A stretch of 64,000 bases of DNA from positions 49,553 to 113,552 of IMG/VR virus record IMGVR_UViG_3300045051_000987; one strand, written 5' to 3'. Source of the DNA: a virus. The notes under the pieces are model-generated. The model saw nothing but the letters and a program-made list of their open reading frames with translations. It did no database searches and had not been told where the DNA came from. Within the stretch, counting starts at the first letter, position 1. Each line of letters opens with the position of its first letter. This document shows positions 3,401 through 46,231 of this stretch, piece after piece. Both the position numbers and the translations under genes were made by a program.

Positions 3401-3420
3401 GTGTTCACCCGGGTGAACAC
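3401..3420. promoter_or_regulatory. 20-bp palindrome, copy 1
   Basis: GTGTTCACCCGGGTGAACAC. It lies between the CATGAT box at 3442 and the AAGGAGG of the 3382 gene, about 15-35 nt into the predicted leader. Its right arm runs into GCCCCAAGGAGG, which resembles the right half of the leader hairpins at 16.6-40 kb. Confidence 0.9.
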
Positions 3421-9386: not shown

Positions 9387-9748
9387 CGGTCGCCGGCCTT
9401 CTTGATCTCGGTCGACGTGAGGATCGGCGGAGCCTGCGGGACCTTCGAGATGATCTCAGCACCGCACTGACCTGCGACGTCGGCGGAGGGGTCGTGCCAG
9501 TGATCGCCGGCGTGTCCGCGTCGAAGCGTGCACACGAAGACGCCCTCGCTCACGAGCGTCACCGCGGTCTTGAGCGGGCTCGTCGCCGGCATCGCGGCCG
9601 CCGCCTCGGCCATCGCGACGTCATGCCGCCGAAGTACTTCGCGCAGCGCGCGAGCGAACGTCGGCCCGTCGATCCCCGCTGCGAACGCGAAGGCCTCGAG
9701 CCCACGCACGAGGCGCTTCACCTCTTCGTCGTCGCTCACCTTGATCAC
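9383..9748 (-). CDS. Hypothetical protein, 121 aa
   Basis: GTG start at 9748 (MIKVSDDEEVKRLVRGLEAF) overlaps the methyltransferase stop as GTGA. GGAGGT stands 7 nt before the GTG and a CATGAT box lies inside the end of the upstream gene, so it may be transcribed both with and without the methyltransferase. Helical first half, then a CxLRRGHAGDHWH patch of unknown meaning. Confidence 0.65.
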   Translation of the reverse strand: MIKVSDDEEVKRLVRGLEAFAFAAGIDGPTFARALREVLRRHDVAMAEAAAAMPATSPLKTAVTLVSEGVFVCTLRRGHAGDHWHDPSADVAGQCGAEIISKVPQAPPILTSTEIKKAGDR

Positions 9749-11517
9749 GTGGGCACCTCCGCGAGCATCATGCCGCCCATCGGGATCCCGTTCGGCTGAA
9801 CCCACACCGATCCCGAGTCGAGCGAGAAGCCGCCGAGCTCGGACGCTGCGAGCGTCACGAGCATCTTCTCCGCGATCGCGCGCGCCGCACCGACGGGCAC
9901 CGCGTTGCCGATGCGCTCCCGCCAGTCGCTCTGACTCTTGCCGGCGAGCACGAGCGGCGCGCCCTTCCACATCGTCGGGATCCCTTGGAGCGACGCAAGC
10001 TCGAGCGTCGTGAGCGGGCGGTGCCATGTCCCGTCCTTCGCGATGATCACGGGGAGGAACGACGGCGCCTTCTTCGGCGTCGCGGCCGCGAGCCTGAGCG
10101 CCTCCTCGATGTCGGCGTTGAACGATGGGCCCGTGCGCGGCTCCGCCACCGCGTACGCGCCGCACCCAACATGCGCGGTGCCTGCGATCGTGCGCGCGGC
10201 CTGCTCCCACCCGAGCACGGCATAGCCGGCGTCATAGGCGTACTTCACGCGGACATCGGCCACACGCGGATCACCGACAGCGGGCCCGCCCGATCCGGGC
10301 TGCGTCGCCTTGATCACCGTGCGCGCGGGCTCGCTCCACTTCCCGACGGCGTACTTGTTCCAGTGCCGGCCCTCGCTCGGCGGGAGCTCGAGCGCGCGCG
10401 GGTCGGCCACCGCGAAGCGACCGTTCGAGGGGAGGCTCTCGCCGCACACCGCGCCGGTCGGTTCCTCCCACGGCGAGACGCCGTAGGCGCCCGCGTGCGG
10501 CCCTCGGGGGTCGGCGACAGCGAACGCCCCGGTCGAGACGCCTGCTCGCCCTGTGACGGTCGGCGCGGGGCCCTCCCATGCCTTCACGCCGAGCACGCCC
10601 CCGAACCATTCGATCCGCGGTTCCTGCACGACGCCGATCGCGTTCGCACCGGCGCCCGTGATCGTGCCGGTCGGCTCATCCCACGGCGCGACCTCGTGCC
10701 GCTTGAAGACCTCGCGCCTCGCCTGACCCTCGGCGAGCACGCCTTCGAGGTCACGCCAATCGCCGCCGGCCGGGATCATCGCGATGCGGACCCAGTTGAG
10801 GAACGAGATCTTCGGGAGCTCGTGGATCTTCCCGAACGCGCGCGCGTCCTCTGTCGCCGGCACGGGGAGCGACTCGAGCACCTCGCCGCACGCGCGCACC
10901 CGCTTCTTCGGGGGCTGGTAGAGCAGGCTCGAGCACCGCGCCTCGAGCCTCGCGACGAGCAGGTAGCGCCGTCGACGCTGAGCGAGCCCGCCGATCTCAC
11001 CGCAGTCGTGGAAGCCCTCGTGCAGCCGGTAGCCGACGCCGCGGAGGAGCTTCTTCACCTGCTCGAGCATCGCCTTCGCGCGCGTCTTGAGGCGCGGCAC
11101 GTTCTCGAGGAGCACGAGCCTCGGGAGCGAGCCCTTCCACGCCTCGATCATCTTGCGCGTCCACGTCAGCGCGAGCGTGTTCATGCGCTGATACTTCTCG
11201 GTCTCGGCGAGCTCCTTCGGGAGGAGCCCGCTCGCCCCCTTGCACGGCGGGCTCATGAAGACGCAGTCGGGACCGATCGCGCCGTACCGCTCGAGGAGCT
11301 CGGCGACGGTGATCTCCTCGACGTCGCGGTGCCACGCCGTGCGCGTGTCGGTGAGGTAGTCGAAGTCGCGACACGCGTCCGGATCGAAGTCGATCCCGCC
11401 GATGCACTCGAAGCGGAGCGCGTGCCCGAAGAGGTGCGCGTGCGCATCGAGGAAGCCGCGAGCTCCCGCGCCGAGACCACCGAAGGGGAAGAGCGCGCGG
11501 AAGACGATCTCGCTCAC
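9745..11517 (-). CDS. C5-cytosine DNA methyltransferase with five-repeat target region
   Basis: 590 aa. Motif I FGGLGAG (12-18), catalytic PC in MSPPC (91-92), ENV (138-140), QRRRR (180-184), late motif IX (TTLELASLQGIP) and X (GNAVP) are all present, so the enzyme looks active. Between motifs VIII and IX (about 275-465) are five imperfect repeats of the form W-x-EP-x-T(V/I)TG...ADPR, starting at W279, W314, W350, W394 and W437. The target recognition region is therefore modular. Most single-specificity enzymes are ~330-420 aa. Confidence 0.92.
   Translation of the reverse strand: MSEIVFRALFPFGGLGAGARGFLDAHAHLFGHALRFECIGGIDFDPDACRDFDYLTDTRTAWHRDVEEITVAELLERYGAIGPDCVFMSPPCKGASGLLPKELAETEKYQRMNTLALTWTRKMIEAWKGSLPRLVLLENVPRLKTRAKAMLEQVKKLLRGVGYRLHEGFHDCGEIGGLAQRRRRYLLVARLEARCSSLLYQPPKKRVRACGEVLESLPVPATEDARAFGKIHELPKISFLNWVRIAMIPAGGDWRDLEGVLAEGQARREVFKRHEVAPWDEPTGTITGAGANAIGVVQEPRIEWFGGVLGVKAWEGPAPTVTGRAGVSTGAFAVADPRGPHAGAYGVSPWEEPTGAVCGESLPSNGRFAVADPRALELPPSEGRHWNKYAVGKWSEPARTVIKATQPGSGGPAVGDPRVADVRVKYAYDAGYAVLGWEQAARTIAGTAHVGCGAYAVAEPRTGPSFNADIEEALRLAAATPKKAPSFLPVIIAKDGTWHRPLTTLELASLQGIPTMWKGAPLVLAGKSQSDWRERIGNAVPVGAARAIAEKMLVTLAASELGGFSLDSGSVWVQPNGIPMGGMMLAEVPT
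9767..9772 (-). promoter_or_regulatory. Class B promoter inside methyltransferase 3' end
   Basis: GGCGGCATGATG, 18 nt before the GTG at 9748 with GGAGGT between them, so a short leadered transcript is expected. Confidence 0.45.
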
Positions 11518-12806: not shown

Positions 12807-13604
12807 TCACTGCGCGTCGGCGATCACGTCGTCTTCGTCGTCGCGGAGCGTCTCGCCCTCGCCGGGCATCTGTTCACCCGGGTGAACACGCGTCGCCTTC
12901 CGCTCTTCGAGGTAGCTCAGCACGCGCGAGAGGCGCGGTTCAGCGAACCCGAGCGGGCGCAACGATCCATCGCCGAGCACGGTGTCTCGCCCCTCGAAAA
13001 GAGCGGCCACGCCCGCCGTCGCAGCGCCGCACACCGGATCGCAGACGACGTCGCCGGGGCGCGAGTAGTCCTCGACGATCTGCCGCATCGCCCAGAGCGG
13101 CTTACCGCCCGTCATGAGGAGCTTCTCGCGCGGGCCCATGTACGCGCCGCGTCCGATGGTCCCCCAGCTCGAGAGCTCGGCGGGGCGCGCGACGAGGATG
13201 AAGTAGCTCCACGGGCTCGGGCCGTCGCCTCGAAGGCGCACGCGCGAGCCGGTCACCACGAGAGGGATCGGAGGGAAGCCGGCGTAGTACCCTGCGCGCT
13301 CGGCCGCGCGTTGCCATGCGGGCCAGAGCACGTGATCGGTGATCGAGACGAGCCACCCTCGATGCACCTCACGCCACGTGTCGACGAAGACGTGCACGTC
13401 TTCCGGCGTCCAGAACGCGTAGGGGATCGACGAGCGCCCGCCGGGCCGCGTGCTGTCGTGCCCGGTGTGCGTGCGCTCGGAGTAGGGCGTGTCGGCCGTG
13501 ATGAGGTTCACCACCTCACGGCGCGCGCGCAGCTCGCGAGCGAGGTCGGTGGCGTCAGCGTGGAAGAGCGAAACGCGCCGGTGCTCGAGGAGGGAGATCG
13601 TCAC
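12807..13604 (-). CDS. Probable DNA methyltransferase (N4/N6 type)
   Basis: 265 aa. TADTPYSERTHTGH resembles motif IV (DPPY-like, here DTPY) and GDVVCDPVCGAATAGVAAL resembles the SAM-binding motif I (DPFxGxGT-like, with cysteine and alanine replacements). Order is permuted as in beta-class enzymes. Changes in both motifs leave activity uncertain. GTG start 6 nt after CATGAT. The palindrome is embedded near the 3' end (VHPGEQ). Confidence 0.7.
   Translation of the reverse strand: MTISLLEHRRVSLFHADATDLARELRARREVVNLITADTPYSERTHTGHDSTRPGGRSSIPYAFWTPEDVHVFVDTWREVHRGWLVSITDHVLWPAWQRAAERAGYYAGFPPIPLVVTGSRVRLRGDGPSPWSYFILVARPAELSSWGTIGRGAYMGPREKLLMTGGKPLWAMRQIVEDYSRPGDVVCDPVCGAATAGVAALFEGRDTVLGDGSLRPLGFAEPRLSRVLSYLEERKATRVHPGEQMPGEGETLRDDEDDVIADAQ
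12870..12889. promoter_or_regulatory. Palindrome, copy 3
   Basis: TGTTCACCCGGGTGAACA at 12871-12888, inside the last ~30 codons of the methyltransferase gene, about 85 nt upstream of the 12786 gene start. Confidence 0.88.
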
Positions 13605-14147: not shown

Positions 14148-14464
14148 GCCGCACCCACGCACGCCGCGCAGACGGTCGCCCCACGCGCGCGCACGAAGTA
14201 GCGGTGATGCGGGGTCGTGCACCGCACGTGCGCGTCGTACCAAGCGCGGCGCGCGTCGTGGTCGGTGGGCTCGGCCGGGATCAGGCCCTCAGCGATCCGC
14301 GCTGCGATGTCTGCCTCGATCGCACGCGCGAGCTCGACGACCTCAGAGGTCGAGATCGGGGAGGTCTTCGACGTCTCCGATGACGTCGTCCGGTGCGAGC
14401 TCGGCGTTGGGATCACCGTCGAGAACGTCGTCTGTGTCGTCGGCTTCTTCGTCCGGGTCTTCAT
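14144..14464 (-). CDS. Hypothetical protein with C-terminal CxxC, start uncertain
   Basis: The C-terminal half (RRAWYDAHVRCTTPHHRYFVRARG, CAAC) is convincing. The N-terminal ~40 residues overlap in another frame the acidic tail of the sigma-like gene and look like low-complexity shadow (KTRTKKPTTQTT). No ATG, GTG or TTG exists after the neighbour's stop, so either a real overlap or a later start (for example GTG near 14404) applies. Confidence 0.5.
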   Translation of the reverse strand: MKTRTKKPTTQTTFSTVIPTPSSHRTTSSETSKTSPISTSEVVELARAIEADIAARIAEGLIPAEPTDHDARRAWYDAHVRCTTPHHRYFVRARGATVCAACVGAA

Positions 14465-14837
14465 CGGGGGGCGCTTCTCCAGCGCCATCATGCCGCGCGC
14501 CCTCGTCGTCCTCGTCGCCGTCGTCGAAGTCGGGCAGCGGTTGGCCCCTGAGCTTCGCGAACGCGATCGTCTCGATCTGCCGCACGCGCTCACGCGATAC
14601 GCCGATCGCCTGAGCGATCATGTCGAGCGTCGCCCCGTCGGGGAACGTCGCGACGAAGAGCTGACACGCGATGTCGTCCTCGTACCGAGTGACCTTGTCC
14701 ACGATCGGGAGCTGCGCGCGGAGGTCGCGTCGAAGGAAGCGATGCCGCTCGCACGTGGTGACGAGCGACCGCGCGGCTCGCACGATCGGAACACCGCACA
14801 CGCGGCACTTCGGCTCGGTGCGTGCCGTCTCGGTCAT
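14343..14837 (-). CDS. Zinc-finger plus sigma-70 region 4-like protein
   Basis: 164 aa in three parts. Residues 11-32 carry C11, C14, C29 and H32, a likely zinc finger. Residues ~68-98 (DGATLDMIAQAIGVSRERVR, then QIETIAFAKLR) match the helix-turn-helix of sigma-70 region 4, which contacts the -35 element. Residues ~100-164 are a D/E-rich tail. There is no region 2, so it cannot melt a promoter alone. It may act as an activator, an appropriator of host sigma, or one half of a split sigma (inference). ATGA-coupled to the gene upstream. Confidence 0.78.
   Translation of the reverse strand: MTETARTEPKCRVCGVPIVRAARSLVTTCERHRFLRRDLRAQLPIVDKVTRYEDDIACQLFVATFPDGATLDMIAQAIGVSRERVRQIETIAFAKLRGQPLPDFDDGDEDDEGARHDGAGEAPPDEDPDEEADDTDDVLDGDPNAELAPDDVIGDVEDLPDLDL
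14487..14492 (-). promoter_or_regulatory. Class B-like box inside sigma-like gene
   Basis: GCGGCATGATGG. No start codon at 6 nt, but GGAGAAG and the ATG at 14464 follow 15-20 nt later, so it may serve the overlapping 14144-14464 gene. Confidence 0.35.
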
Positions 14838-15139: not shown

Positions 15140-15585
15140 GCGAACACACCGGGGGGCGGGAGGGTCTCGCGCGCGCGGATCGCATCGCTCGAGCGCTTCG
15201 ACGCTGCGACGATCCACTCGAAGACGTCCTCGTCTCGCTCGATCTCGAGGAGCAGCGACCCGAAGTGAAAGACGCCCATGTGCGGGCCCGAGCACACGAT
15301 CGGGCGCCCCGTCGCGTAGGCGATCCCGACCTCGAAGCCTCCGCCGGTCGAGCCCTTCTTCGGCGTGAGGAACCAGATCAGGTCGGCCGAGAGCACCGCG
15401 GCGATCTCGGCCTGCGCGATCGCGGGGCTGCGATGGTCGGCCGCGTCGGTGGGCGAGCACCCCGCGGAAAGCACGGCGGGCGTCCAGTCGTAGGTGACGA
15501 GGACGCCCGCGGCGCGGAGCGCCTCGATCCATCGAGACGCGCGATCAGCTTCGGTTGATCCCGAGGCGACGTAGACCTTGAGCAC
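15136..15585 (-). CDS. Nucleoside 2-deoxyribosyltransferase-like protein
   Basis: 149 aa. LKVYVASGSTEADRASRWIE, a WT loop, then ADLIWFLTPKKGSTGGGFEVG follow the Rossmann-like pattern of nucleoside 2-deoxyribosyltransferase/YtoQ-type proteins, in which the conserved E of GGxxEVG is near the active site. The family exchanges or hydrolyses bases on deoxynucleosides; a NAD or nucleotide hydrolase role is an alternative. GTG start 6 nt after CATGAT. Confidence 0.75.
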   Translation of the reverse strand: MLKVYVASGSTEADRASRWIEALRAAGVLVTYDWTPAVLSAGCSPTDAADHRSPAIAQAEIAAVLSADLIWFLTPKKGSTGGGFEVGIAYATGRPIVCSGPHMGVFHFGSLLLEIERDEDVFEWIVAASKRSSDAIRARETLPPPGVFA

Positions 15586-15591
15586 GGCGGC

Positions 15592-15597
15592 ATCATG
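15592..15597 (-). promoter_or_regulatory. Class B leaderless promoter -10 (CATGAT)
   Basis: CGCGGCATGATGCC with a 6-nt gap to the GTG at 15585. Confidence 0.6.
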
Positions 15598-15625
15598 CCG
15601 CGACGCCTCGGGCGGTGTCACTCGG

Positions 15626-16063
15626 TCAGAGCGCGGCCTCGAGCTCCGAGAGCGCGGCGAGCGCCCCGAGATCGGCACGACCGATCCGCTTCAACGTGAC
15701 CTCGCGCATCCACGTCGCGACGGGGACCTTCTTGCAGTGCTTCGCGATCGCGGCGCCCTGCTTCGTCGTGCTCTTCACCGAGAAGTTGCTCGCGCCCGCG
15801 AGCGTGATCGCGCGCTTGCCGGTGCCCTTCATGGCGTCGACGCCGAGGCCGAGCCCACCACCGATCGCCTCGAGCGAGGCTTCGCGCACGAGGGACGGGG
15901 GCGAGATCTTGTGCTTGCGGCAGTAGTCGCCGATCGCGATGCCCTGCTCGTCGTTCACTCGGATCGTCACCGAGTGATCGAGCGTCCCACCCTTGTAGAG
16001 CTGCGGGCGCCCCGCGCCCTCGCGCCGTCCGCCCTTCGTGCTCGCCTTCTTCTTCGTCGCCAT
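15626..16063 (-). CDS. Tandem ribbon-helix-helix-like DNA-binding protein
   Basis: 145 aa. Basic lead GGRREGAGRP, then two repeats of strand plus two helices (SVTIRVNDEQGIAIGDYC at ~31-48 and NFSVKSTTKQGAAIAKHC at ~93-110, each followed by a helix). One chain could thus form a pseudo-dimer and bind a palindromic operator, making it a candidate regulator. AGGAAGG stands about 11 nt before the ATG. Confidence 0.6.
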   Translation of the reverse strand: MATKKKASTKGGRREGAGRPQLYKGGTLDHSVTIRVNDEQGIAIGDYCRKHKISPPSLVREASLEAIGGGLGLGVDAMKGTGKRAITLAGASNFSVKSTTKQGAAIAKHCKKVPVATWMREVTLKRIGRADLGALAALSELEAAL

Positions 16064-16079
16064 GGTCTCGGTTCCTTCC

Positions 16080-16613
16080 TCAGTCGGCGAGCGAGGAGCG
16101 ACAGAGCTCCGCGGCCACCGCGTACATGGGGTGTGCGCCCTGCGCGATCACGAGCTCCTCGACGCCGACGGTGCTCACCACCTCGACCGACCAGAACCCG
16201 CGCGCGCGCCTCGAGCGGAGCGATCGACCGTCAGAGCGGTCGACCATCGCGACGAGCCGATCGAGGCTGTCGGGCGTCACGAAGTGACCGGCGTGCGAGC
16301 GCTGCCAGATAGCTTGGAGCTCGATGAAGAGATCGTCGGAGGGACCGAAGGCCGGGAGCTTCTCCGCGGCCAGCACGCCCTTGCACTCGCCTCGCTCACG
16401 CGAGCGCGCCTCGTGCCGGTAGACGTGCAAGAGCGCCTTCCGAATGCGGTCACCGTCGGGGCTGTCTTCACCACCGGGGCCCTCGATGAAGATCGGGGCG
16501 AGCGCGTTGTTCACGAGATGCGACGCGAGGCAGACGCCGAAGAGGGGCATCGCTGCGACGATCATGGCCTCGGTCGCGAGGTGCGCGCGTCGGCGCCAGA
16601 GGGGAGAGCTCAT
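16080..16613 (-). CDS. Hypothetical protein, 177 aa, hydrophobic N-terminal segment
   Basis: MSSPLWRRRAHLATEAMIVA leads into one hydrophobic stretch (~16-38) that could be a membrane segment or a buried helix. The rest is soluble and charged. A GGGGCUUGCCCC hairpin followed by AGGAAGG precedes the ATG, as in the neighbouring class A units. No family recognised. Confidence 0.65.
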   Translation of the reverse strand: MSSPLWRRRAHLATEAMIVAAMPLFGVCLASHLVNNALAPIFIEGPGGEDSPDGDRIRKALLHVYRHEARSRERGECKGVLAAEKLPAFGPSDDLFIELQAIWQRSHAGHFVTPDSLDRLVAMVDRSDGRSLRSRRARGFWSVEVVSTVGVEELVIAQGAHPMYAVAAELCRSSLAD

Positions 16614-16629
16614 CGATTCCAACCTTCCT

Positions 16630-16641
16630 GGGGCAAGCCCC
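16630..16641 (-). promoter_or_regulatory. Leader hairpin before Shine-Dalgarno (GGGGCTTGCCCC)
   Basis: Four G:C pairs closed by a CUUG tetraloop, immediately 5' of AGGAAGG for the 16613 gene. One of seven copies. Confidence 0.75.
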
Positions 16642-16643
16642 GA

Positions 16644-16659
16644 GGCCCCCGCGGGGGCC
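16644..16659 (-). terminator. Terminator-like GC palindrome
   Basis: GGCCCCCGCGGGGGCC, a perfect inverted repeat just after the 16666 gene stop, without a U-run. It may attenuate rather than stop transcription into the next two genes. Confidence 0.4.
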
Positions 16660-16665
16660 GAGAGA

Positions 16666-16992
16666 TCACGCGGCGCGGGAGCCGTTGAGCGACTCGCACG
16701 CCGCAACCGTGAGCTCGAACGAGCTGACGTAGCAGCCGTCGAAGTGCTCGGGCATGCGGGTGATGTCGACCACCGGGCACGCGGCCTTCACCGAGACGAG
16801 GAACGCGACCGCCGTGAGGCGCTCGTCGCGCGTCGCGCCGTGGCGCACGCGGACGTTGATCAGGCCGCGCGCGCAGCCCTTGCCGGCCACAATCGAGAGG
16901 TAGCCGAGGCCGAGGTTCTTCGCGAGCTGGCGGAGCTGCGCGACGTTCTCCGAGCGGGGCATCTCGAGGCCGGTCATCGTGTTCGTCATCAT
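16666..16992 (-). CDS. Hypothetical protein, 108 aa, first gene of a class A unit
   Basis: MMTNTMTGLEMPRSENVAQL. Alpha/beta protein with no known motif. It is the only class A gene without the leader hairpin: the -10 TATACC ends 7 nt before the ATG, predicting a leaderless message. Confidence 0.65.
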   Translation of the reverse strand: MMTNTMTGLEMPRSENVAQLRQLAKNLGLGYLSIVAGKGCARGLINVRVRHGATRDERLTAVAFLVSVKAACPVVDITRMPEHFDGCYVSSFELTVAACESLNGSRAA

Positions 16993-17036
16993 GGATTTAG
17001 GTATACAGCCGACATCCGAAAGGCGCCAGAGAAAAA
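16993..17036 (-). promoter_or_regulatory. Class A promoter 1
   Basis: CTGGCG, an 18-nt spacer, TATACC, then TAAATCC. Serves the 16992 gene directly and the two genes after it. Confidence 0.8.
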
Positions 17037-17058
17037 AGACAGTCGTCGAATCTTTTTT
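17031..17058 (-). terminator. A/T-stem terminator
   Basis: AAAAAAGA ... TCTTTTTT inverted repeat starting at the stop of the acetyltransferase gene. Leftward transcripts end in a U-run. It abuts the class A promoter. Confidence 0.6.
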
Positions 17059-17870
17059 CAGGACGCGTCGATCCGGGCTGTCTCGACCGCCTTGCGCGTG
17101 TGCTTCGTGAGCCCGCGGGCCCAGACCGTCTTGCGCCCCGTCGGCGCCTTGTCCTCGCGCGGGCGAGCTGCGCGGTTCCAACTACCGCCCTTGCCACGGC
17201 GCACGCACACGAAGCCCGACGCGCGCAGGCTGACGCCGCTCTCTTCGTCGAGGATGGACGTGATCAGCTTGTCGTATCCGAGCTCGAGTGCGCGCGACCC
17301 GCACGCCGCGTAGAGCTTGCTCGACGCGTTGCGCCTGAGCGCGGGATGCCCCCACGTCGCGACGCGGAGCACCTCGAGCGTGCACGGCTCGGCCTTCTGC
17401 ACGAGGCGCGACACAGGACGACCGACCATCGCCACGCCGACGCGCACGCCGCCGTTGTAGATGGCGATCGAGAACTTGTGACCTTGCGGCTTGCTGTGGT
17501 GCCGGTGATGGCGATCGACCTCCGCGCACACCTCGGAGAACCACCCATCGTGCGACGCGCACTGCTGGTGCCCCGTCTTGCGCGTGGGGTCGTAGATCTC
17601 TAGGCGCGCGACGATCGTCCCGTCCCCGTCCTCGATGATCTCCATGACCTCGAGACTCGGATCGATGAGCTGCACGACGTCGGCGAGCTCGATCCCGTAC
17701 GCCGCCGCGAAGCCATCGAGCGCGACGGCCTCTCGCTGCTCCTCGCAGCACGGCGCCCACGTCAGGAAGCGCGAGCCCGTGCAGGTGAGCACATCGCACC
17801 CGTAGAGGCTCGCAGCGTCGCCGAAGAGCCACGAGGTGCCGCAGTGCACGCACGAGGGATCGTCGTTCAC
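17058..17870 (-). CDS. XF1762-like GNAT acetyltransferase
   Basis: 270 aa. N-terminal ~60 residues have two CxxC-like pairs (CVHCG and CDVLTCTG...CC). The C-terminal ~150 residues follow the XF1762 phage N-acetyltransferase pattern: GRPVSRLVQ, TLEVLRV, NASSKLYAACGSRALELGYD, then ITSILDEESGVSLRASGF. The substrate is unknown. The GTG start overlaps the winged-helix gene stop as GTGA. Confidence 0.8.
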   Translation of the reverse strand: MNDDPSCVHCGTSWLFGDAASLYGCDVLTCTGSRFLTWAPCCEEQREAVALDGFAAAYGIELADVVQLIDPSLEVMEIIEDGDGTIVARLEIYDPTRKTGHQQCASHDGWFSEVCAEVDRHHRHHSKPQGHKFSIAIYNGGVRVGVAMVGRPVSRLVQKAEPCTLEVLRVATWGHPALRRNASSKLYAACGSRALELGYDKLITSILDEESGVSLRASGFVCVRRGKGGSWNRAARPREDKAPTGRKTVWARGLTKHTRKAVETARIDAS

Positions 17871-18079
17871 GACGCGACCCCGATCGCCTCGCGACCCTTC
17901 GCCGTGATCGCGAACGTGCCCGCGGGCGTCCGCTCGAGGAGCCCGGTCGCAAGGCACCGGCGGAGGTGCTCGACGTCGACCGCCTCGACGCGCGCCGGGA
18001 TCTCCTTCGTCCCGTTCTCCGTCTTCTGGCGGAGCACGAATAGGTTCGTGCTCGTGGGCGTGCCCTTCGGCTTCCTCAC
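17867..18079 (-). CDS. Small winged-helix-like protein, 70 aa
   Basis: VEHLRRCLATGLLERTPAGT followed by FAITAKGREAIG reads as helix, recognition helix and wing. Basic N-terminus. Could be a DNA-binding regulator. ATGA and GTGA overlaps tie it to both neighbours. Confidence 0.6.
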   Translation of the reverse strand: MRKPKGTPTSTNLFVLRQKTENGTKEIPARVEAVDVEHLRRCLATGLLERTPAGTFAITAKGREAIGVAS

Positions 18080-18264
18080 GACGCCACCTTCGCAAGCTCA
18101 GCCTCGACGATCGCGCGGAGCTCCGCGGTGCTGACGCGCGACGCGCGGACGTCGAAGACCTCGCCCTTCTCGCTCTGCGCGGTGCCGCACGAGATGCCGT
18201 CCTCGTCATAGACCGCGTGGAAGAAGCTCTTGCGACCCGTCTTGCTCGTCTCGACCGTGAACAT
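18076..18264 (-). CDS. Small hypothetical protein, 62 aa
   Basis: MFTVETSKTGRKSFFHAVYD, a small beta-rich protein with a helical end. First gene of the second class A unit; AAGGAG directly follows the leader hairpin. Function unknown. Confidence 0.7.
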   Translation of the reverse strand: MFTVETSKTGRKSFFHAVYDEDGISCGTAQSEKGEVFDVRASRVSTAELRAIVEAELAKVAS

Positions 18265-18280
18265 CGTCTCTTCTCTCCTT

Positions 18281-18292
18281 GGGGCGAGCCCC
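18281..18292 (-). promoter_or_regulatory. Leader hairpin before Shine-Dalgarno (GGGGCTCGCCCC)
   Basis: Copy 2, followed at once by AAGGAG of the 18264 gene. Confidence 0.75.
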
Positions 18293-18303
18293 GCGAACCG
18301 TCT

Positions 18304-18345
18304 GATTGATTTAGGTATACACGAGCCCTCCGAAACCCGCCAGGG
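18304..18345 (-). promoter_or_regulatory. Class A promoter 2
   Basis: CTGGCG, 18 nt, TATACC, with TGTATACCTAAATCAATC intact. Drives the 62-aa gene, winged-helix gene and acetyltransferase. Confidence 0.85.
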
Positions 18346-18382
18346 GAAATCGACGAGGCCCGGACGATTTCTCGCCGGGCCC
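18344..18382 (-). terminator. Terminator-like hairpin after ardC
   Basis: GGCCCGG / CCGGGCC stem around a CGAGAAATCGT loop, then TCGTCGATTTCC. Weak U-run. The loop resembles those of the terminators at 19.35 and 20.4 kb. Confidence 0.55.
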
Positions 18383-18391
18383 TTCCTCACC

Positions 18392-19273
18392 TCACGCCGC
18401 TTCGGCTTCCTCCGCTTCCTCCTCGGTCGCGAGAAGGAGATCGACAGCCTTCTCAGCCTCACGCGCGACCGTGAAGATCGCGTGCTTGTCGGCCTTGAGC
18501 ACCTTGATCCACGAGGCGAGGTATTCCGCGTGCTGGATGCGCCCGACCACACCGAGGCGTGCGCACGCGAACGCCGCACCGAGCTCGGCGACGAGCTCCT
18601 CCGTCGCATAGGCGTCGTCGCCGAAGCGCTTCCCGAACGCGCGCGCGTTGCGGCTCTCGTGACCCGTCCAGTGCACGAGCTCGTGCAGAAGCGTCGACTC
18701 GTACTCCTCGCGCGTCGCGAACGCGTCGGCGACCGGCATCCCGATCGTGTCGCTCGATGGCGAGAAGAACGCACGGTCACCACCACGCACGACCTTGGCA
18801 CCGACGCGCGCCGCCACACGATCAGCCTCGCCGTCGACGTGCGTGGGCGCGGGGGTGCGCGCGTCGAGCTCAAGCCCGTCGCACTGCTCGACGTTGAAGA
18901 GCGAGAACGTGCGCGCCATCGGGATCCGCTTCTCGTTCGGCGTGCCCTCGTCCTTCACGAGCCACTTCCAGAACACGATCGACGTCGCCTTCTCGCCCTT
19001 GCGGACCGAGCCGCCGAGATCGCGGGCTTGGTTGAACGTGACCCAGCGCGTGTCAGCGTAGCCCTTCGTCAGCGCAGAGGCCCACAGCATCACGACGTTG
19101 ACACCGCGGTAGGTGCGACCCGTCGACGCGTTCGACGGTAGCTCGAGGCCCGTCGTCGGCCCGACGCCATCGCGCCACGGCTTCACCCAGGGAGCAGTGC
19201 CGGCCTCGAGCGCCTCCACGATCTTCGCCGTCACCTCAGCCGCCACGTCCCGCTTCGTCGTCTCGTTCTTCAT
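18392..19273 (-). CDS. ardC: ArdC-like antirestriction protein
   Basis: 293 aa, the usual family length. N-terminal ArdC domain (KIVEALEAGTAPWVKPW, SNASTGRTYRGVN, YADTRWVTFNQA, VRKGEKATSIVFWK) binds single-stranded DNA in plasmid homologues. C-terminal zincin domain carries HELVH at 197-201 with WTGHESR after it. Known members protect incoming DNA from type I restriction. Monocistronic, with its own class A promoter, leader hairpin and terminator, consistent with expression on entry. Confidence 0.93.
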   Translation of the reverse strand: MKNETTKRDVAAEVTAKIVEALEAGTAPWVKPWRDGVGPTTGLELPSNASTGRTYRGVNVVMLWASALTKGYADTRWVTFNQARDLGGSVRKGEKATSIVFWKWLVKDEGTPNEKRIPMARTFSLFNVEQCDGLELDARTPAPTHVDGEADRVAARVGAKVVRGGDRAFFSPSSDTIGMPVADAFATREEYESTLLHELVHWTGHESRNARAFGKRFGDDAYATEELVAELGAAFACARLGVVGRIQHAEYLASWIKVLKADKHAIFTVAREAEKAVDLLLATEEEAEEAEAA

Positions 19274-19286
19274 CGCTCAGCTCCTT

Positions 19287-19298
19287 GGGGTGAACCCC
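19287..19298 (-). promoter_or_regulatory. Leader hairpin before Shine-Dalgarno (GGGGTTCACCCC)
   Basis: Copy 3. Stem retained with a different loop (TTCA), which supports selection on the hairpin rather than the sequence. AAGGAG follows. Confidence 0.75.
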
Positions 19299-19302
19299 GT
19301 TC

Positions 19303-19344
19303 GATTGATTTAGGTATACAGCCGAACGCCTGAACGTGCCAGGA
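19303..19344 (-). promoter_or_regulatory. Class A promoter 3 (ardC)
   Basis: CTGGCA, 18 nt, TATACC with intact CTAAATCAATC. Confidence 0.85.
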
Positions 19345-19382
19345 GAAAAGACGAGCCCCGTCGATTCCTCGCGCGACTCGTC
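19344..19382 (-). terminator. Intrinsic terminator
   Basis: GACGAG ... CTCGTC stem followed by TTTTCTCC on the minus strand, ending the 19381 gene. Confidence 0.6.
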
Positions 19383-19977
19383 ACTTCCCCATCGCAGCGA
19401 GATCCGCCTCAGCCTTCGCAAGCATCGCGCGGAGCTCGACGACACGGCGCTCCGCGAGCGGACGTTGACGCGCACGCGCCGCGCGCAGGTCGTCGTCGGC
19501 CTGAAAGGCCTTCGCCACCCACAAGCCCGCGGCCCACCCCTGCGCCTCCGCGACGGCACTCTCGAAGGCCACGCCGGTGCGCGCGGGCTTCGAGGTCTGG
19601 TAGGTCGCCGGACGGCCGAGGATGTAGCGCACGAGCGCCACGCCACCGAAGCGGAACACCACCGTCGTCGAGCGGTAGTCGGGGAACGCCGCGAGGCACT
19701 CCGCCGCGAGCTCGAGGCCGGCCTCGTTCATCGGGAGCACCACGAAGCGCGTCGACGTCGTCCCGCGGCACTCGGTGAACGAGCCGCGGAGCGCACGCAC
19801 GCGGGCGCCGAAGCGGACCGGGAACGCGCGATCGTCGTCGCCGAACGAGACCGAGCTGAGCTGTAGCTCGACCACCGCCGTCGACGGTTGGAAGCGGATC
19901 GACTCGGACACCGCGCGCTCCGCGGCCGCGAGCCCACCGTCGGTGTTCAGCGAAGACATGGTCTCGAAGCTCAGCAT
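19381..19977 (-). CDS. Hypothetical protein, 198 aa
   Basis: MLSFETMSSLNTDGGLAAAE; central alpha/beta region, then a C-terminal coiled-coil-like helix (LAERRVVELRAMLAKAEADL). AAGGAG and the leader hairpin precede the ATG although no promoter does, so it is the second gene of the 20381 transcript. Not recognised. Confidence 0.65.
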   Translation of the reverse strand: MLSFETMSSLNTDGGLAAAERAVSESIRFQPSTAVVELQLSSVSFGDDDRAFPVRFGARVRALRGSFTECRGTTSTRFVVLPMNEAGLELAAECLAAFPDYRSTTVVFRFGGVALVRYILGRPATYQTSKPARTGVAFESAVAEAQGWAAGLWVAKAFQADDDLRAARARQRPLAERRVVELRAMLAKAEADLAAMGK

Positions 19978-19991
19978 GGCGGGATCTCCTT

Positions 19992-20003
19992 GGGGCAAGC
20001 CCC
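19992..20003 (-). promoter_or_regulatory. Leader hairpin, intercistronic (GGGGCTTGCCCC)
   Basis: Copy 4, between the 20018 gene stop and the 19977 start, without its own promoter. Confidence 0.7.
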
Positions 20004-20017
20004 GGGAACGGGTCGGA

Positions 20018-20332
20018 TCAGAGCGAGAGGTAGAGGCCGGTCGCCTGCTCGAGCGTCGCGCGGAGGCTGTCCGCGTAGACCATCTCGGAGCGCGAGAGCT
20101 CGGTGATCTCGTAGGTGCGGCGCGCGATCTTGAAGCAGACGACCGTGTATGTGTCGTCGTCGGCGAGCTCGATGCGGACCTTCGTGACGCCCTTCGCGTT
20201 CTTCATCACGCCGAACTGGAGACCACCGTTGCCGTCGAGAGCGACGAGATCCTTCGCGCCGATCATGTACATCGCCGAGCCACCGCCGAGCTGCGCCTTG
20301 ATCGTCTCGGCCACCATCATGTTCGTCGTCAT
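20018..20332 (-). CDS. Hypothetical protein, 104 aa
   Basis: MTTNMMVAETIKAQLGGGSA; small beta-rich protein. AAGGAG 8-9 nt before the ATG and leader hairpin just upstream. Function unknown. Confidence 0.68.
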   Translation of the reverse strand: MTTNMMVAETIKAQLGGGSAMYMIGAKDLVALDGNGGLQFGVMKNAKGVTKVRIELADDDTYTVVCFKIARRTYEITELSRSEMVYADSLRATLEQATGLYLSL

Positions 20333-20347
20333 TGTCTTCTGCTCCTT

Positions 20348-20359
20348 GGGGCAAGCCCC
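20348..20359 (-). promoter_or_regulatory. Leader hairpin before Shine-Dalgarno (GGGGCTTGCCCC)
   Basis: Copy 5, followed by AAGGAG of the 20332 gene. Confidence 0.75.
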
Positions 20360-20380
20360 GCGTTCCGCCGTCACCGTCTC

Positions 20381-20422
20381 GATTGATTTAGGTATACACC
20401 CACCCTCCCGAACGCGCCAGAA
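20381..20422 (-). promoter_or_regulatory. Class A promoter 4
   Basis: CTGGCG, 18 nt, TATACC with intact CTAAATCAATC. Confidence 0.85.
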
Positions 20423-20461
20423 AAAAGATTCGGGGCCCTGACGATTTCTCGCGAGGGCCCC
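20421..20461 (-). terminator. Intrinsic terminator
   Basis: GGGGCCCT / AGGGCCCC stem (20454-20461 with 20432-20439), then GAATCTTTTTT. The best rho-independent terminator seen in the window. It closes the 21.8-20.5 kb unit. Confidence 0.8.
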
Positions 20462-20465
20462 TCGA

Positions 20466-20759
20466 TCACGGCTTCTTCGAGATCTCATGCCCGAGCGCCT
20501 CCCACATGCCCTCCGGCTGATGCCCCTTGTACGCAGGCGCACCCGCCCGATACGCGGCCTCATTCCGGAATACCGCGCGCGCGTCCTCGATCGGAACCTC
20601 GGGGTGCTGCTCGACGTGCGCCGCTGCTCCGACGTCTGCCGCTTCGGGCGTCAGCTCGCGCGGGTACGTCATCGCATCGGCCCACGCTCCCGCGGCGCGC
20701 GCGAGCTCGGGATCGAGCCGTCGAAAGACGGCGTTGTCTCGACGCTTCCGGGCCCTCAC
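20466..20759 (-). CDS. Hypothetical protein, 97 aa
   Basis: GTG start (MRARKRRDNAVFRRLDPEL) overlapping the upstream TGA. Helical, no motif recognised. Last gene before a strong terminator. Confidence 0.6.
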   Translation of the reverse strand: MRARKRRDNAVFRRLDPELARAAGAWADAMTYPRELTPEAADVGAAAHVEQHPEVPIEDARAVFRNEAAYRAGAPAYKGHQPEGMWEALGHEISKKP

Positions 20760-21043
20760 GCGCCCGCCTTGTCGAGGATGCCGGCGATCGACTTCGCGAG
20801 CGCTTCGAGATGACGGCCTTCGAGCTCGCCGTTCTCGATCGCCTTCTCGACGCCCGTGCGAATCGCACCGCCAAGCTCCACGAGCGATTCTTCGTAGCCT
20901 TCGCGGGCCTGCTCGCGCTCGAAGCCTCGATTCTCACCGATGCACTTCTTCGCATCGAGCGTGCGCTCGAGAGCATCGAAGATCACGACGCTCGGGGCCT
21001 TCCACGAGGTCGCGCGGTTGTTCTTCTTCTTGGGCGAGCTCAA
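20756..21043 (-). CDS. Hypothetical protein, 95 aa
   Basis: MSSPKKKNNRATSWKAPSVV; lysine-rich start and a helical rest. A TTG start overlapping the upstream TGA as TTGA fits the chain of coupled genes. Confidence 0.6.
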   Translation of the reverse strand: MSSPKKKNNRATSWKAPSVVIFDALERTLDAKKCIGENRGFEREQAREGYEESLVELGGAIRTGVEKAIENGELEGRHLEALAKSIAGILDKAGA

Positions 21044-21300
21044 GCGAGCACCTCACGCAACGGACGCCACGCCTTGTCCGTCAGACGTCGAGCGAGCCCG
21101 CCCCCGGTCTTCGTCGGCGCCATCTCGAGCACGACGATCCGCCCGGTGTCCTTCGGCGTGGTGCGCGCGAGCGGGGAGCGGTGCACGGGGCAGACGGCGC
21201 GCGAGAGCGGGAGCGAGCCCTTCCACGCGTAGACCGTGCACGGGTGCCCGCAGTCGTTGCACTTGCCGAGGCGATGTCCGAGGAGGCCGAAGCGGCTCAC
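21040..21300 (-). CDS. Small zinc-finger-like protein, 86 aa
   Basis: GTG start (MSRFGLLGHRLGKCNDCGHP) in a GTGA overlap. CNDCGHPC and a later CPVH give a plausible four-ligand zinc site. Basic. Role unknown. Confidence 0.6.
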   Translation of the reverse strand: MSRFGLLGHRLGKCNDCGHPCTVYAWKGSLPLSRAVCPVHRSPLARTTPKDTGRIVVLEMAPTKTGGGLARRLTDKAWRPLREVLA

Positions 21301-21779
21301 GACTCGCCTCGCTTCTTCACCGCGTCGATCACGGTGTCGACGAGCTCGGCGCCGCGCATCGTGATCGGGACAGGGCCCGCGATGCACTCGACTCGCACGA
21401 TCTCGGGGAAGACGTCGCCCGGCTCCGCGTTGCGAAGCCATCGGCACACGCTCACGTCGTCGACGTTGCTCGCGAGCATCGCGTGGAGCGAGTAGAGCTC
21501 GGGCTCGTCGTCGCAGCGGAAGTGCACGGCGCGCAGCACGAGCCCGCGCTTGGATCCCGGTGCATCCCACGCGACCTCGAGCGCGAGCGGTGCGAGAGCC
21601 GCTTCGATCTCCTCGGGCGCCTCCTTCGCGCGCACCGCGATCGCGCCCGTGAGCATCGTCGAGACGAAGGCGAGGAAGCAGGACCCGCCCTCAAGCGCTC
21701 GGTGCACGGCCGAGGCTTCCTCCGCGGTGAAGATCTTCCGCCTCGGGCGCGGGCCCGTCGTTGTCGTCGCTGCGTTCAT
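21297..21779 (-). CDS. Hypothetical protein, 160 aa
   Basis: MNAATTTTGPRPRRKIFTAE; the body is alpha/beta. First gene of the fifth class A unit with AAGGAGG 6-7 nt before the ATG and the leader hairpin next to it. Not recognised. Confidence 0.68.
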   Translation of the reverse strand: MNAATTTTGPRPRRKIFTAEEASAVHRALEGGSCFLAFVSTMLTGAIAVRAKEAPEEIEAALAPLALEVAWDAPGSKRGLVLRAVHFRCDDEPELYSLHAMLASNVDDVSVCRWLRNAEPGDVFPEIVRVECIAGPVPITMRGAELVDTVIDAVKKRGES

Positions 21780-21792
21780 CCTGTTCCTCCTT

Positions 21793-21804
21793 GGGGCGAG
21801 CCCC
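21793..21804 (-). promoter_or_regulatory. Leader hairpin before Shine-Dalgarno (GGGGCTCGCCCC)
   Basis: Copy 6. Begins directly after CTAAATCAATC, so the transcript starts almost at the hairpin. Confidence 0.75.
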
Positions 21805-21846
21805 GATTGATTTAGGTATACACGCGACGTCCCAAGGGCGCCAGAT
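21805..21846 (-). promoter_or_regulatory. Class A promoter 5
   Basis: CTGGCG, 18 nt, TATACC with intact CTAAATCAATC. Drives the 21779, 21300, 21043 and 20759 genes. Confidence 0.85.
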
Positions 21847-37236: not shown

Positions 37237-37866
37237 TCAACGCGCCTCTGAGGCGCTCGTCACTCTGCGGACCGCGGCGCCGACCATCCGGCGCGCGTGT
37301 CCTTCGGAATCCATGCGATACGTGAGCCGCGCGTCGAAGTCCGCGTAGATCGTCATCGCCGTCTCGTCGATGCTGCGCCCCTCGAGCACGAGCTCGACCG
37401 CGAGCCGCTCAAGGCCCTTGAGCTCGCTCACGAGGCGCGCAGCACGCTCGCGCATCTCAACGATCGTCTCGAGACTCACGCCCTCGGGCTCGATCGCTTC
37501 GAGCGCTTCCACGACGTCGACGGCGACCTGACGAGCAGGATCGCGACGGCGCGGGTCGGGGTAGCCGGCGACCTGACGAAGGCGCCGCTGACACGCACGA
37601 CCGAGCTGCGCGTCGACGTAGGGCACGAGCGCCGCGCGCTCCGGATCCCACGAGTCGACAGCGCGCCACAGCGCGACGAGCATCTCCTGGATCAGATCCT
37701 CAGCGTCGAGGCTCGTCTGCCCGCTCCACATCCACACGCGGAGGAACCGCTTCGCGCGGAGCTCGAGCGCGGGGCGGATGTCGCGCGTGAGCTGATCGAA
37801 GGTGAGGGTGCCCACCCGAAGCGCCTCGAGCGCGCTTCGGTGGGATGCGAGATTGCTCGGACGCAT
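37237..37866 (-). CDS. Phage sigma factor (sigma-70 family, ECF-like size)
   Basis: 209 aa. Residues ~50-98 (SLDAEDLIQEMLVALWRAVD, SWDPERAALVPYVDAQLGRA) match sigma region 2, which binds core polymerase and melts the -10. Residues ~145-170 (ELKGLERLAVELVLEGRSID) resemble the start of region 4. It would direct polymerase to one of the phage promoter classes; which one cannot be told from sequence. Start is 2 nt after the UvrD-type helicase stop. Confidence 0.78.
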   Translation of the reverse strand: MRPSNLASHRSALEALRVGTLTFDQLTRDIRPALELRAKRFLRVWMWSGQTSLDAEDLIQEMLVALWRAVDSWDPERAALVPYVDAQLGRACQRRLRQVAGYPDPRRRDPARQVAVDVVEALEAIEPEGVSLETIVEMRERAARLVSELKGLERLAVELVLEGRSIDETAMTIYADFDARLTYRMDSEGHARRMVGAAVRRVTSASEAR

Positions 37867-40034: not shown

Positions 40035-40414
40035 CGTCGATTCTCCTTGGGGCGAGCCCCGAAGCTGTCTCCCTGCGAGACGAGATGGAACCTAGCCGGA
40101 CGCCGCGCGCATGTCCAGATTGATTTAGGTGGCTCCTCTGGATTTCGCGGATCACCCTGTTCACCCGGGTGAACACGAGATCCGCGGGCCTTCTTGCGCT
40201 TCTCTCGACGAAGACGCCTCGCTTCTGCGAGATCGTCCTCAAGCGCGAGGCGAAAGATCCATCGATCGACGGTGTTCTCCTCGACGTTCAGGATCCGCGC
40301 GGCGCCGCAAATGTTGCCCTCGCTCTTCCGCAGCGCGTTCCTCACGCGACGACGAGCGAGCTCGGTCTCGCCCGCGCGCATGATGCGTCCAATCTCGGTG
40401 CTTCGGTTCGGCAT
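39926..40414 (-). CDS. Fis/NtrC-type HTH protein overlapping helicase leader
   Basis: 162 aa. Residues ~23-56 (RVRNALRKSEGNICGAARIL, NVEENTVDRWI) match the Fis-type helix-turn-helix. A very basic helix follows (RREKRKKARG). From ~residue 80 the frame runs through the palindrome (RVHPGEQ), the class A remnant (PKSIWTC) and 108 nt into the helicase in another frame, so the tail may be non-essential read-through. Candidate transcription factor acting on its own downstream region. Confidence 0.65.
   Translation of the reverse strand: MPNRSTEIGRIMRAGETELARRRVRNALRKSEGNICGAARILNVEENTVDRWIFRLALEDDLAEARRLRREKRKKARGSRVHPGEQGDPRNPEEPPKSIWTCARRPARFHLVSQGDSFGARPKENRRWKRISLALAPSVPFRARRRLARASSKGSTPSRLRS
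40049..40060 (-). promoter_or_regulatory. Leader hairpin before Shine-Dalgarno (GGGGCTCGCCCC)
   Basis: Copy 7, followed by AAGGAG of the UvrD-type helicase. Confidence 0.75.
40118..40130 (-). promoter_or_regulatory. Class A remnant (ACCTAAATCAATC)
   Basis: The downstream half of the class A element is intact but TATACC is replaced by GCCACC and no CTGGCR lies 18 nt upstream. Either a dead promoter or a separate protein site. Confidence 0.6.
40157..40176. promoter_or_regulatory. Palindrome, copy 6
   Basis: TGTTCACCCGGGTGAACA at 40158-40175, 27 bp upstream of the class A remnant, in the Fis-type gene. Confidence 0.9.
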
Positions 40415-45787: not shown

Positions 45788-45807
45788 GTGTTCACCCGGG
45801 TGAACAC
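45788..45807. promoter_or_regulatory. Palindrome, copy 7 (operator over -35)
   Basis: Lies at about -18 to -37 of the helicase promoter, where a bound dimer would block polymerase. Confidence 0.92.
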
Positions 45808-45823: not shown

Positions 45824-46231
45824 TCAGCGTGAGGACGTGTTCACCCGGGTGAACACGTTCGCCGCCTGCTTCGCGATCGCAGCGATCACGAGGATCGTCT
45901 CGTGACGTCGACGGCGCCGCTGCGCGACCTGCTCCTCGGTGAAGAGCTTCGGCTTGATCACGTCGTCCTCACGGATGAGCTTCTTCTCGAAGTCGATGAG
46001 GTCGTCGATCGTGATCCGATCGATGTGCGAGCCGCGCACGAGGTACGGGTCTCGGAGCGCCGGTGCTTCGAGGTCGACCTCGACACCCACGACGCGCCCG
46101 CTGTCGTCCACCGCGAGGAGCGCAGGCCATTCGTTGCCCGTGACGAGCTGCGCGAACAGGGGGAAGTCGGCCGCTGCGCGCGTCATGGCGAACGTCGGAG
46201 ACACGAGGAGGATCACGGGGGTCTTCTTCAC
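45824..46231 (-). CDS. Hypothetical protein, 135 aa
   Basis: GTG start (MKKTPVILLVSPTFAMTRAA) in a GTGA overlap. Alpha/beta, ending in a basic helix. The last residues (NVFTRVNTSSR) are encoded by palindrome copy 8. Confidence 0.62.
   Translation of the reverse strand: MKKTPVILLVSPTFAMTRAAADFPLFAQLVTGNEWPALLAVDDSGRVVGVEVDLEAPALRDPYLVRGSHIDRITIDDLIDFEKKLIREDDVIKPKLFTEEQVAQRRRRRHETILVIAAIAKQAANVFTRVNTSSR
45837..45856. promoter_or_regulatory. Palindrome, copy 8 (paired with copy 7)
   Basis: 49 bp from copy 7, the only close pair in the window, suggesting cooperative binding upstream of the SF2 helicase. Confidence 0.92.

Follow-up and report, generated by a model that had tools for sequence, protein, structure and literature searches.

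Here we describe a repeated control unit in virus record IMGVR_UViG_3300045051_000987 of IMG/VR (G000; 113,552 bp), seen in a 64-kb stretch of that record (bases 49,553-113,552) that we call the window; coordinates prefixed with G refer to the full record and unprefixed ones to the window. The unit begins with a promoter-like element, termed class A, which occurs five times on the minus strand between 16990 and 21844, ahead of genes that include those for an ArdC-type anti-restriction protein and a Mom-like DNA modification protein. The record has a G+C content of ~68%, and 157 genes were called in it, nearly all on the minus strand; the gene limits are approximate, since the caller was of a simple codon-usage type. 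The class A copies and the genes of their units are listed below.

16666..16992, minus strand: unit 1 gene, 108 amino acids (aa), no family match
16990..17029, minus strand: class A copy 1, CTGGCG-N18-TATACC-TAAATCCATG; the downstream gene's ATG is at the element end
17058..17870, minus strand: Mom-like DNA modification protein, 270 aa, phrog_1384, E 1.7e-20
18076..18264, minus strand: unit 2 first gene, 62 aa, no family match
18304..18343, minus strand: class A copy 2; would drive 18076-18264, 17867-18079 and the Mom-like gene
18392..19273, minus strand: ArdC-type anti-restriction protein, ArdcN and MPTase-PolyVal domains, phrog_7245
19303..19342, minus strand: class A copy 3; would drive ArdC; the sole copy with CTGGCA
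19381..19977, minus strand: unit 4 second gene, 198 aa, no family match
20018..20332, minus strand: unit 4 first gene, phrog_9437, function not known
20381..20420, minus strand: class A copy 4; the same as the G36224 copy outside the window at 39/40 positions
20466..21779, minus strand: unit 5, four small genes (20466-20759, 20756-21043, 21040-21300, 21297-21779), no significant match in the families searched
21805..21844, minus strand: class A copy 5; preceding stop codon ~10 nucleotides (nt) upstream of the -35

The class A element

A sequence-only reading of this DNA had proposed tandem transcription units under one promoter repeated at five sites, with CTGGCR, a spacer of exactly 18 nt and TATACC. 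Both the arrangement and the sequence held up, each of the five minus-strand sites having these parts without a mismatch, as did the remark that the tail is slightly changed at 16993: four sites carry TAAATCAATC, and the tail at 16990-17005 is TAAATCCATG. In full the element is CTGGCR-N18-TATACCTAAATCAATC, and three further copies outside the window (G32669, G34397 and G36224) bring the record to eight, arranged in two clusters at G32.6-36.2 kb and G66.5-71.4 kb. Pairwise identity over the whole element is 30-39 of 40 positions, the spacer being partly conserved too. The 16-mer at up to three mismatches gave zero matches in 100 dinucleotide shuffles of the window, and exact 16-mers are expected ~8e-7 times in the whole record. 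All copies have one orientation, sit just upstream of a gene start, keep the -35/-10 geometry and are mostly followed by a leader with a Shine-Dalgarno sequence. The transcript from copy 1 would be almost leaderless, since its ATG lies at the element end, inside the tail. The spacing fits the 16-18 nt of sigma70-type promoters, CTGGCG or CTGGCA matching TTGACA at 3-4/6 positions and TATACC matching TATAAT at 4/6; a scan against Rfam gave no match in the region.

A leader fused to the ribosome site

Behind the element lies a shared leader that had escaped the sequence-only reading, in which GGGG-N4-CCCC is fused directly to the Shine-Dalgarno sequence AAGGAG. This combination occurs 10 times on the minus strand of G000 and 0 times on the plus strand: seven of the sites are behind class A, two stand before the second gene of a unit (G35870, G69555) and one before UvrD (G89612). 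Seven of the eight class A copies carry it, the exception being the 16990 copy. AAGGAG precedes 7/8 first genes versus 8/149 other genes, and three of those eight carry the same leader.

18275..18292, minus strand: leader hairpin and Shine-Dalgarno, GGGGCTCGCCCC-AAGGAG
19281..19298, minus strand: leader hairpin and Shine-Dalgarno, variant GGGGTTCACCCC-AAGGAG, C-G to U-A at the loop-adjacent pair
20342..20359, minus strand: leader hairpin and Shine-Dalgarno, GGGGCTTGCCCC-AAGGAG
21787..21804, minus strand: leader hairpin and Shine-Dalgarno, directly abutting class A copy 5
19986..20003, minus strand: leader hairpin and Shine-Dalgarno without promoter, before the second gene of unit 4
16624..16641, minus strand: degenerate leader without promoter, GGGGCTTGCCCC-AGGAAG
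40043..40060, minus strand: leader hairpin and Shine-Dalgarno, before the UvrD helicase gene (37869-40034)

Three loop sequences occur, CUUG, CUCG and UUCA, and the loop-adjacent pair is C-G with the first two and U-A with UUCA, a single compensatory change in two near-identical copies; the leaders at G34397 and G68870 are identical. Single leaders fold no better than shuffled sequence, but no folding excess is expected from so short a stem, and the case for the leader rests on its exact conservation. The leader 18-mer had two matches in IMG/VR, both by chance.

Cargo genes and islands

The presence of ArdC among the genes, already proposed from the letters, is borne out by matches to PF08401 (E 9e-39) and PF18818 (E 3e-45), both of which exceed the cut-off, whereas the supposed acetyltransferase turned out by match to be the Mom-like protein, which shares 37% identity with a protein of phage ZF40 annotated as Mom-like and has a predicted role in modification. 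The phrog_9437 product has relatives of 37-44% identity in alphaproteobacterial and other phages. The cargo also includes DpdA (PF23859, E 1.6e-63), whose control by class A would follow from an operon, since its gene comes last in the unit headed by the G36224 promoter, and phrog_751, function not known; most other cargo genes are anonymous. A Nudix hydrolase lies just upstream of the G36224 promoter in the same island, a position that does not imply class A control. Neither BLASTP nor phmmer found paralogy among genes behind different class A promoters, so it is the control unit that was copied and not the genes; an origin of the cassettes by gene duplication was rejected for this reason, and the earlier description of genes copied as a module holds for promoter plus leader but not for the genes themselves.

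Both clusters lie in stretches that relatives lack. The genes flanking cluster 1 (g35, g53) are ~6.9 kb apart in G000 and 1-31 nt apart in the relatives G005 and G010, while those flanking cluster 2 (g93, g118) are ~11.6 kb apart in G000, overlap in G005 and G010, and have only two small genes between their counterparts in a third relative, G009. Orthologues in relatives (tblastn, E 1e-5) were found for 0/26 cassette-region genes (g40-g51, g99-g112) versus 57/131 others (Fisher p 2.5e-6), and phmmer against the relatives gave two weak matches at the edges of the cassette regions (g99, g112).

Such islands raise the question of whether the repeats serve recombination or mobility, as a mini mobile element would, with promoter activity being incidental. 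The spread of copies through islands absent from relatives would suit this, and the G36224/G69948 pair (39/40 positions) and the identical G34397/G68870 leaders look recently copied. However, every copy shares the orientation, the position at a gene start, the -35/-10 geometry and mostly the Shine-Dalgarno leader described above, and the family matches obtained for the cassette genes included no transposase; we regard this account as very improbable.

Arrays in relatives

Phage families matched among the G000 proteins are portal, PolB, UvrD, DnaB-like helicase, Toprim primase and the tail sheath and tube families. The portal matches PF04860 and phages of about 93-110 kb, as does the capsid, and the sheath matches Streptomyces phage BRock. 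No close database relative was found, and PolB- and ArdC-based searches for near relatives found none, giving one distant ArdC locus without the class A element. A capsid search returned twelve IMG/VR records at 45-70% identity and two contigs from Myxococcales/Deltaproteobacteria metagenome-assembled genomes at 54-55% identity, the latter making a Myxococcota host likely; the phage is lytic-looking.

Twelve relatives, mostly fragments, were compared. The exact class A element and leader are absent from all twelve. The sequence-only reading had taken absence from all relatives as evidence against itself; this absence applies to the sequence but not to the architecture, since a promoter array is present in two of them, whose core proteins are roughly 40-70% identical to those of G000. 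Beyond these relatives, the exact 16-mer had 54 single matches in IMG/VR, nearly all on low- or medium-GC contigs and none with a correctly spaced CTGGC, as expected by chance; a search for CTGGC-N17-TGTATACCTAA gave two chance matches, and the CTGGC-spaced element was found in none of 84,980 genomes.

The relatives' own arrays were exposed by de novo word counts. G009 has seven copies of AAAATAAGTGTGGACA-N17-TATAGTCTTCTCA, that is TGGACA-N17-TATAGT, with the upstream part changed in two. Six of the seven have a GC hairpin leader, mostly followed by a Shine-Dalgarno sequence, and the seventh has its start codon inside the tail, like the 16990 copy of G000; the leader stems use different base pairs in different copies. 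One copy stands between primase and UvrD, a place where G000 retains leader and tail. A pairing of CUUCUC with the Shine-Dalgarno sequence in these leaders was considered and is probably moot, because CUUCUC would sit upstream of the start point. G005 has six copies of TTGAAATCGTGTTGCAC-N16-TAnnnT (TTGCAC-N16-TAnnnT), the start codon mostly following a few nt further on. The two arrays have one gene family in common (39% identity, E 3e-17), and the promoters of both are near the sigma70 consensus. Within one genome, array copies are on average 74-90% identical, whereas between genomes they score no higher in alignments than shuffled sequence does.

Junctions between units

Most units had been said to end in a hairpin with a similar loop or in a U-run. 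This is true of the GC hairpins before 18304, 19303 and 20381 (z -3.1 to -4.1), but before 16993 there is a weak A/U stem and before 21805 no hairpin, there being no room for a terminator at copy 5, where the preceding stop codon lies so close to the -35. What had been called a similar loop is a tetraloop of the GNRA type (GAAA, GGAA) with A-U/G-C closing pairs. Across all eight junctions, strong hairpins occur at three, of which two also have a U-run, weak A/U stems at two, and nothing convincing at the other three.

20432..20461, minus strand: terminator-like GC hairpin, GAAA loop, then U-run, z -3.3
19350..19382, minus strand: terminator-like hairpin, then UUUU, z -4.1
18357..18382, minus strand: GC hairpin, GAAA loop, no U-run, z -3.1
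17031..17059, minus strand: A/U stem GAAAAAAGA..UCUUUUUUC, z -1.1, either a weak terminator or an A/T tract resembling an UP element

A+T averages 55% over the 30 nt that precede the -35, versus 32% genome-wide, and only ~1% of genomic 30-mers reach 50%. This tract is a possible UP element, and at some junctions its bases may also be part of the terminator.

Candidate readers and a shared 12-mer

Three features elsewhere in the window bear on what might read or regulate class A.

37237..37815, minus strand: sigma-factor-like protein, sigma70 region 2 E 7e-9, in a UvrD-PolB operon; rival reader of class A
14343..14837, minus strand: sigma region 4-like protein, possible Zn ribbon and acidic tail
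40118..40133, minus strand: CCTAAATCAATC tail without TATA, directly upstream of a promoter-like TGGACA-N17-TAGGTT (40117-40089)

The region 2-like and region 4-like proteins are separate, and both are conserved in relatives, the former being kept in G009 and G010; they may represent regulators that act independently, or the parts of a split sigma factor. The predicted structure of the region 2-like protein is of low confidence (pLDDT, the predicted local distance difference test score, 64), and its Foldseek matches to sigma factors, which run along its length, are only supportive for that reason.

If the region 2-like protein read class A, or if another phage regulator activated it, the copies would be middle promoters and the cassettes delayed-early or middle. 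This would suit a conserved, phage-encoded sigma-like protein, as well as the unusual hexamers and the conservation of the entire 40-nt element, and modification genes can act after the first minutes of infection. Yet the arrays of two relatives are near-consensus sigma70 even though G009 has the same sigma-like gene, and the protein is conserved whereas the promoter sequence is not, so that we hold middle promoters to be unlikely.

The 12-mer CCTAAATCAATC occurs exactly at nine places, with ~0.0003 expected per strand, and two of them (G89681, G44819) have no class A TATA box, so it may be a separate regulator site. It could serve as an operator, through which a phage regulator shuts class A off by covering the start point and also acts on the UvrD-sigma-PolB operon, where the 12-mer abuts the -35 of TGGACA-N17-TAGGTT. 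Just two sites lie outside class A, however, no candidate regulator is at hand, and the UvrD site may be what remains of a class A promoter, as G009 has a complete promoter there. We hold the operator to be more doubtful than likely, and it is compatible with host-read promoters and not exclusive of them.

Other repeats and genes

G000 contains 21 exact copies of a perfect palindrome, GTTCACCCGGGTGAAC (often GTGTTCACCCGGGTGAACAC), 12 of them between predicted genes though only ~6% of the record is noncoding; sites in the window include 3403-3418, 12872-12887, 40159-40174, 45790-45805 and 45839-45854. Each relative has a different dispersed palindrome (GTTGTAACCTCGAGGTTACAAC in G005, GTGTCTCCTCGAGGAGACAC in G009, GAGTCTCCCCGGGGAGACTC in G010 and GCGTCCCGACGTCGGGACGC in G002). 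The palindrome appears operator-, stoperator- or parS-like. None of the 21 lies within 900 bp of class A, where only ~1.6 would be expected, and the depletion is not significant.

Two further repeats are promoter-like or strand-biased. A second promoter-like class, GGCATGATG, is present in 17 exact copies, all of them on the minus strand (e.g. 12799, 15598, 22935, 35944), and hardly occurs in relatives; its typical place, 13 nt ahead of a start codon, points to leaderless messages. A third, GCTACC(A/T)TC with variants, likewise has 17 minus-strand copies and 0 on the plus strand (e.g. 50905, 55360, 57815, 60440), often ~15 nt ahead of start codons, those of structural genes among them, and is strand-biased also in G002 and G005. 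Besides Mom and DpdA the record encodes several DNA methyltransferases: a C5-methylase at 9745-11517, another to the left of the window, and N6/N4 methylases, one of them at 12807-13604. In G009, 15210-18020 on the minus strand encodes a UvrD-like protein of 936 aa with an intein-looking segment between GDPAQC and SIYGWRG.

Discussion

The explanation we favour, and consider probable, is that the units are plug-in cassettes from which accessory genes for counter-defence and DNA modification are expressed, with class A as strong promoters for the host RNA polymerase, in the manner of the promoter early stem-loop (PeSL) cassettes of T4. A unit would consist of an A/T-rich tract, formed at some junctions by the U-run of the previous terminator and possibly acting as an UP element; the repeated sigma70-type promoter CTGGCR-N18-TATACC, whose tail TAAATCAATC would cover the start point; in seven of the eight units, the leader, with its short GC hairpin fused to the strong Shine-Dalgarno sequence; and one to a few accessory genes. 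Host RNA polymerase would read these promoters early, and the hairpin may protect or present the ribosome site. Identical control units, presumably spread by recombination, would then allow joint expression of newly captured anti-restriction, DNA-modification and other accessory genes.

The main reason for favouring the host polymerase as reader is the near-consensus sigma70 arrays of G009 and G005, and it is plausible that the cassette genes are immediate-early, as the sequence-only reading had it. Their cargo alone is no proof of early expression, because Mom is a late gene in phage Mu. Several observations weigh against our explanation. A strict sigma70 scan of the region returned 0 promoters, and the hexamers match the consensus only moderately; phage sigma-like proteins could read class A instead. 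Terminators are absent at three of the eight junctions and weak at two. The G005 messages would be nearly leaderless, so that the architecture does not always include the leader. The relatives are mostly fragmentary, and two more distant myxobacterial relatives have no array.

Known systems offer partial parallels. The PeSL cassettes of T4-like phages combine a repeated early promoter with terminator stem-loops among variable accessory genes, and have been proposed to drive shuffling (PMC4503421, PMC3950731). As in that account, a repeated promoter, here in eight copies and plausibly early, stands upstream of variable, lineage-specific open reading frames (ORFs). In contrast to the PeSLs so described, the G000 unit belongs to another phage lineage, has an unrelated sequence and consensus, includes the leader hairpin and strong Shine-Dalgarno sequence, and lacks a terminator at several junctions; shuffling in G000 would be by analogy. 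Class A thus works like a PeSL but is not classed as one, because the phage is not T4-like by its portal, capsid and sheath matches and the consensus is different. T4-like early promoters have an A-rich, UP-like region, lie upstream of many novel ORFs and have a phage-specific consensus (PMC1524935). They nevertheless stay recognisably alike between phages, whereas the promoters of the G000 family cannot be aligned above background.

The SPO1 host-takeover cluster, which sits in the terminal redundancy of a Bacillus phage, has repeated early promoters and strong ribosome sites. Repeated promoters and strong ribosome sites before small genes are thus common to both systems, the terminal-redundancy location being a feature of SPO1. 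The cluster consists of small host-directed genes (PMC6873191). The SAS and ESAS elements of cluster K mycobacteriophages are, like class A, short repeats near the starts of genes of different families; the ESAS consensus differs between subclusters, and ESAS consists of 17-bp inverted repeats for which an RNA hairpin is little supported (PMC3203893, PMC12699233). Class A differs in being a promoter plus hairpin leader, and the SAS consensus GGGATAGGAGCCC at up to two mismatches had 0 matches in the window. In the haloarchaeal virus HGTV-1, most ORFs in one half of the genome follow a conserved promoter-like motif that contains an inverted repeat, and the authors of that study compare it to PeSLs (PMC3950731); that motif has an archaeal TATA-box context, whereas class A is of the bacterial sigma70 type.

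More speculatively, and with more doubt than confidence, the cassette promoter may be a private, fast-changing regulatory address, alike within each genome and with no detectable likeness between relatives whose core proteins remain clearly related. Captured genes would need the resident address, which may co-evolve with a phage regulator or with the phage-specific dispersed palindrome.

For the biology of this family, the cassettes would carry the concept of mobile promoter cassettes beyond T4-like phages to a family that is unrelated to them and probably infects myxobacteria, and would add a repeated translation leader to the cassette unit. They mark anonymous small genes as likely co-expressed with known anti-restriction and DNA-modification genes. 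They also offer a simple signature by which to search the family of G000 for accessory genes, probably of counter-defence. Sameness within a genome, set against complete turnover between relatives, makes the concerted evolution of phage promoters testable.

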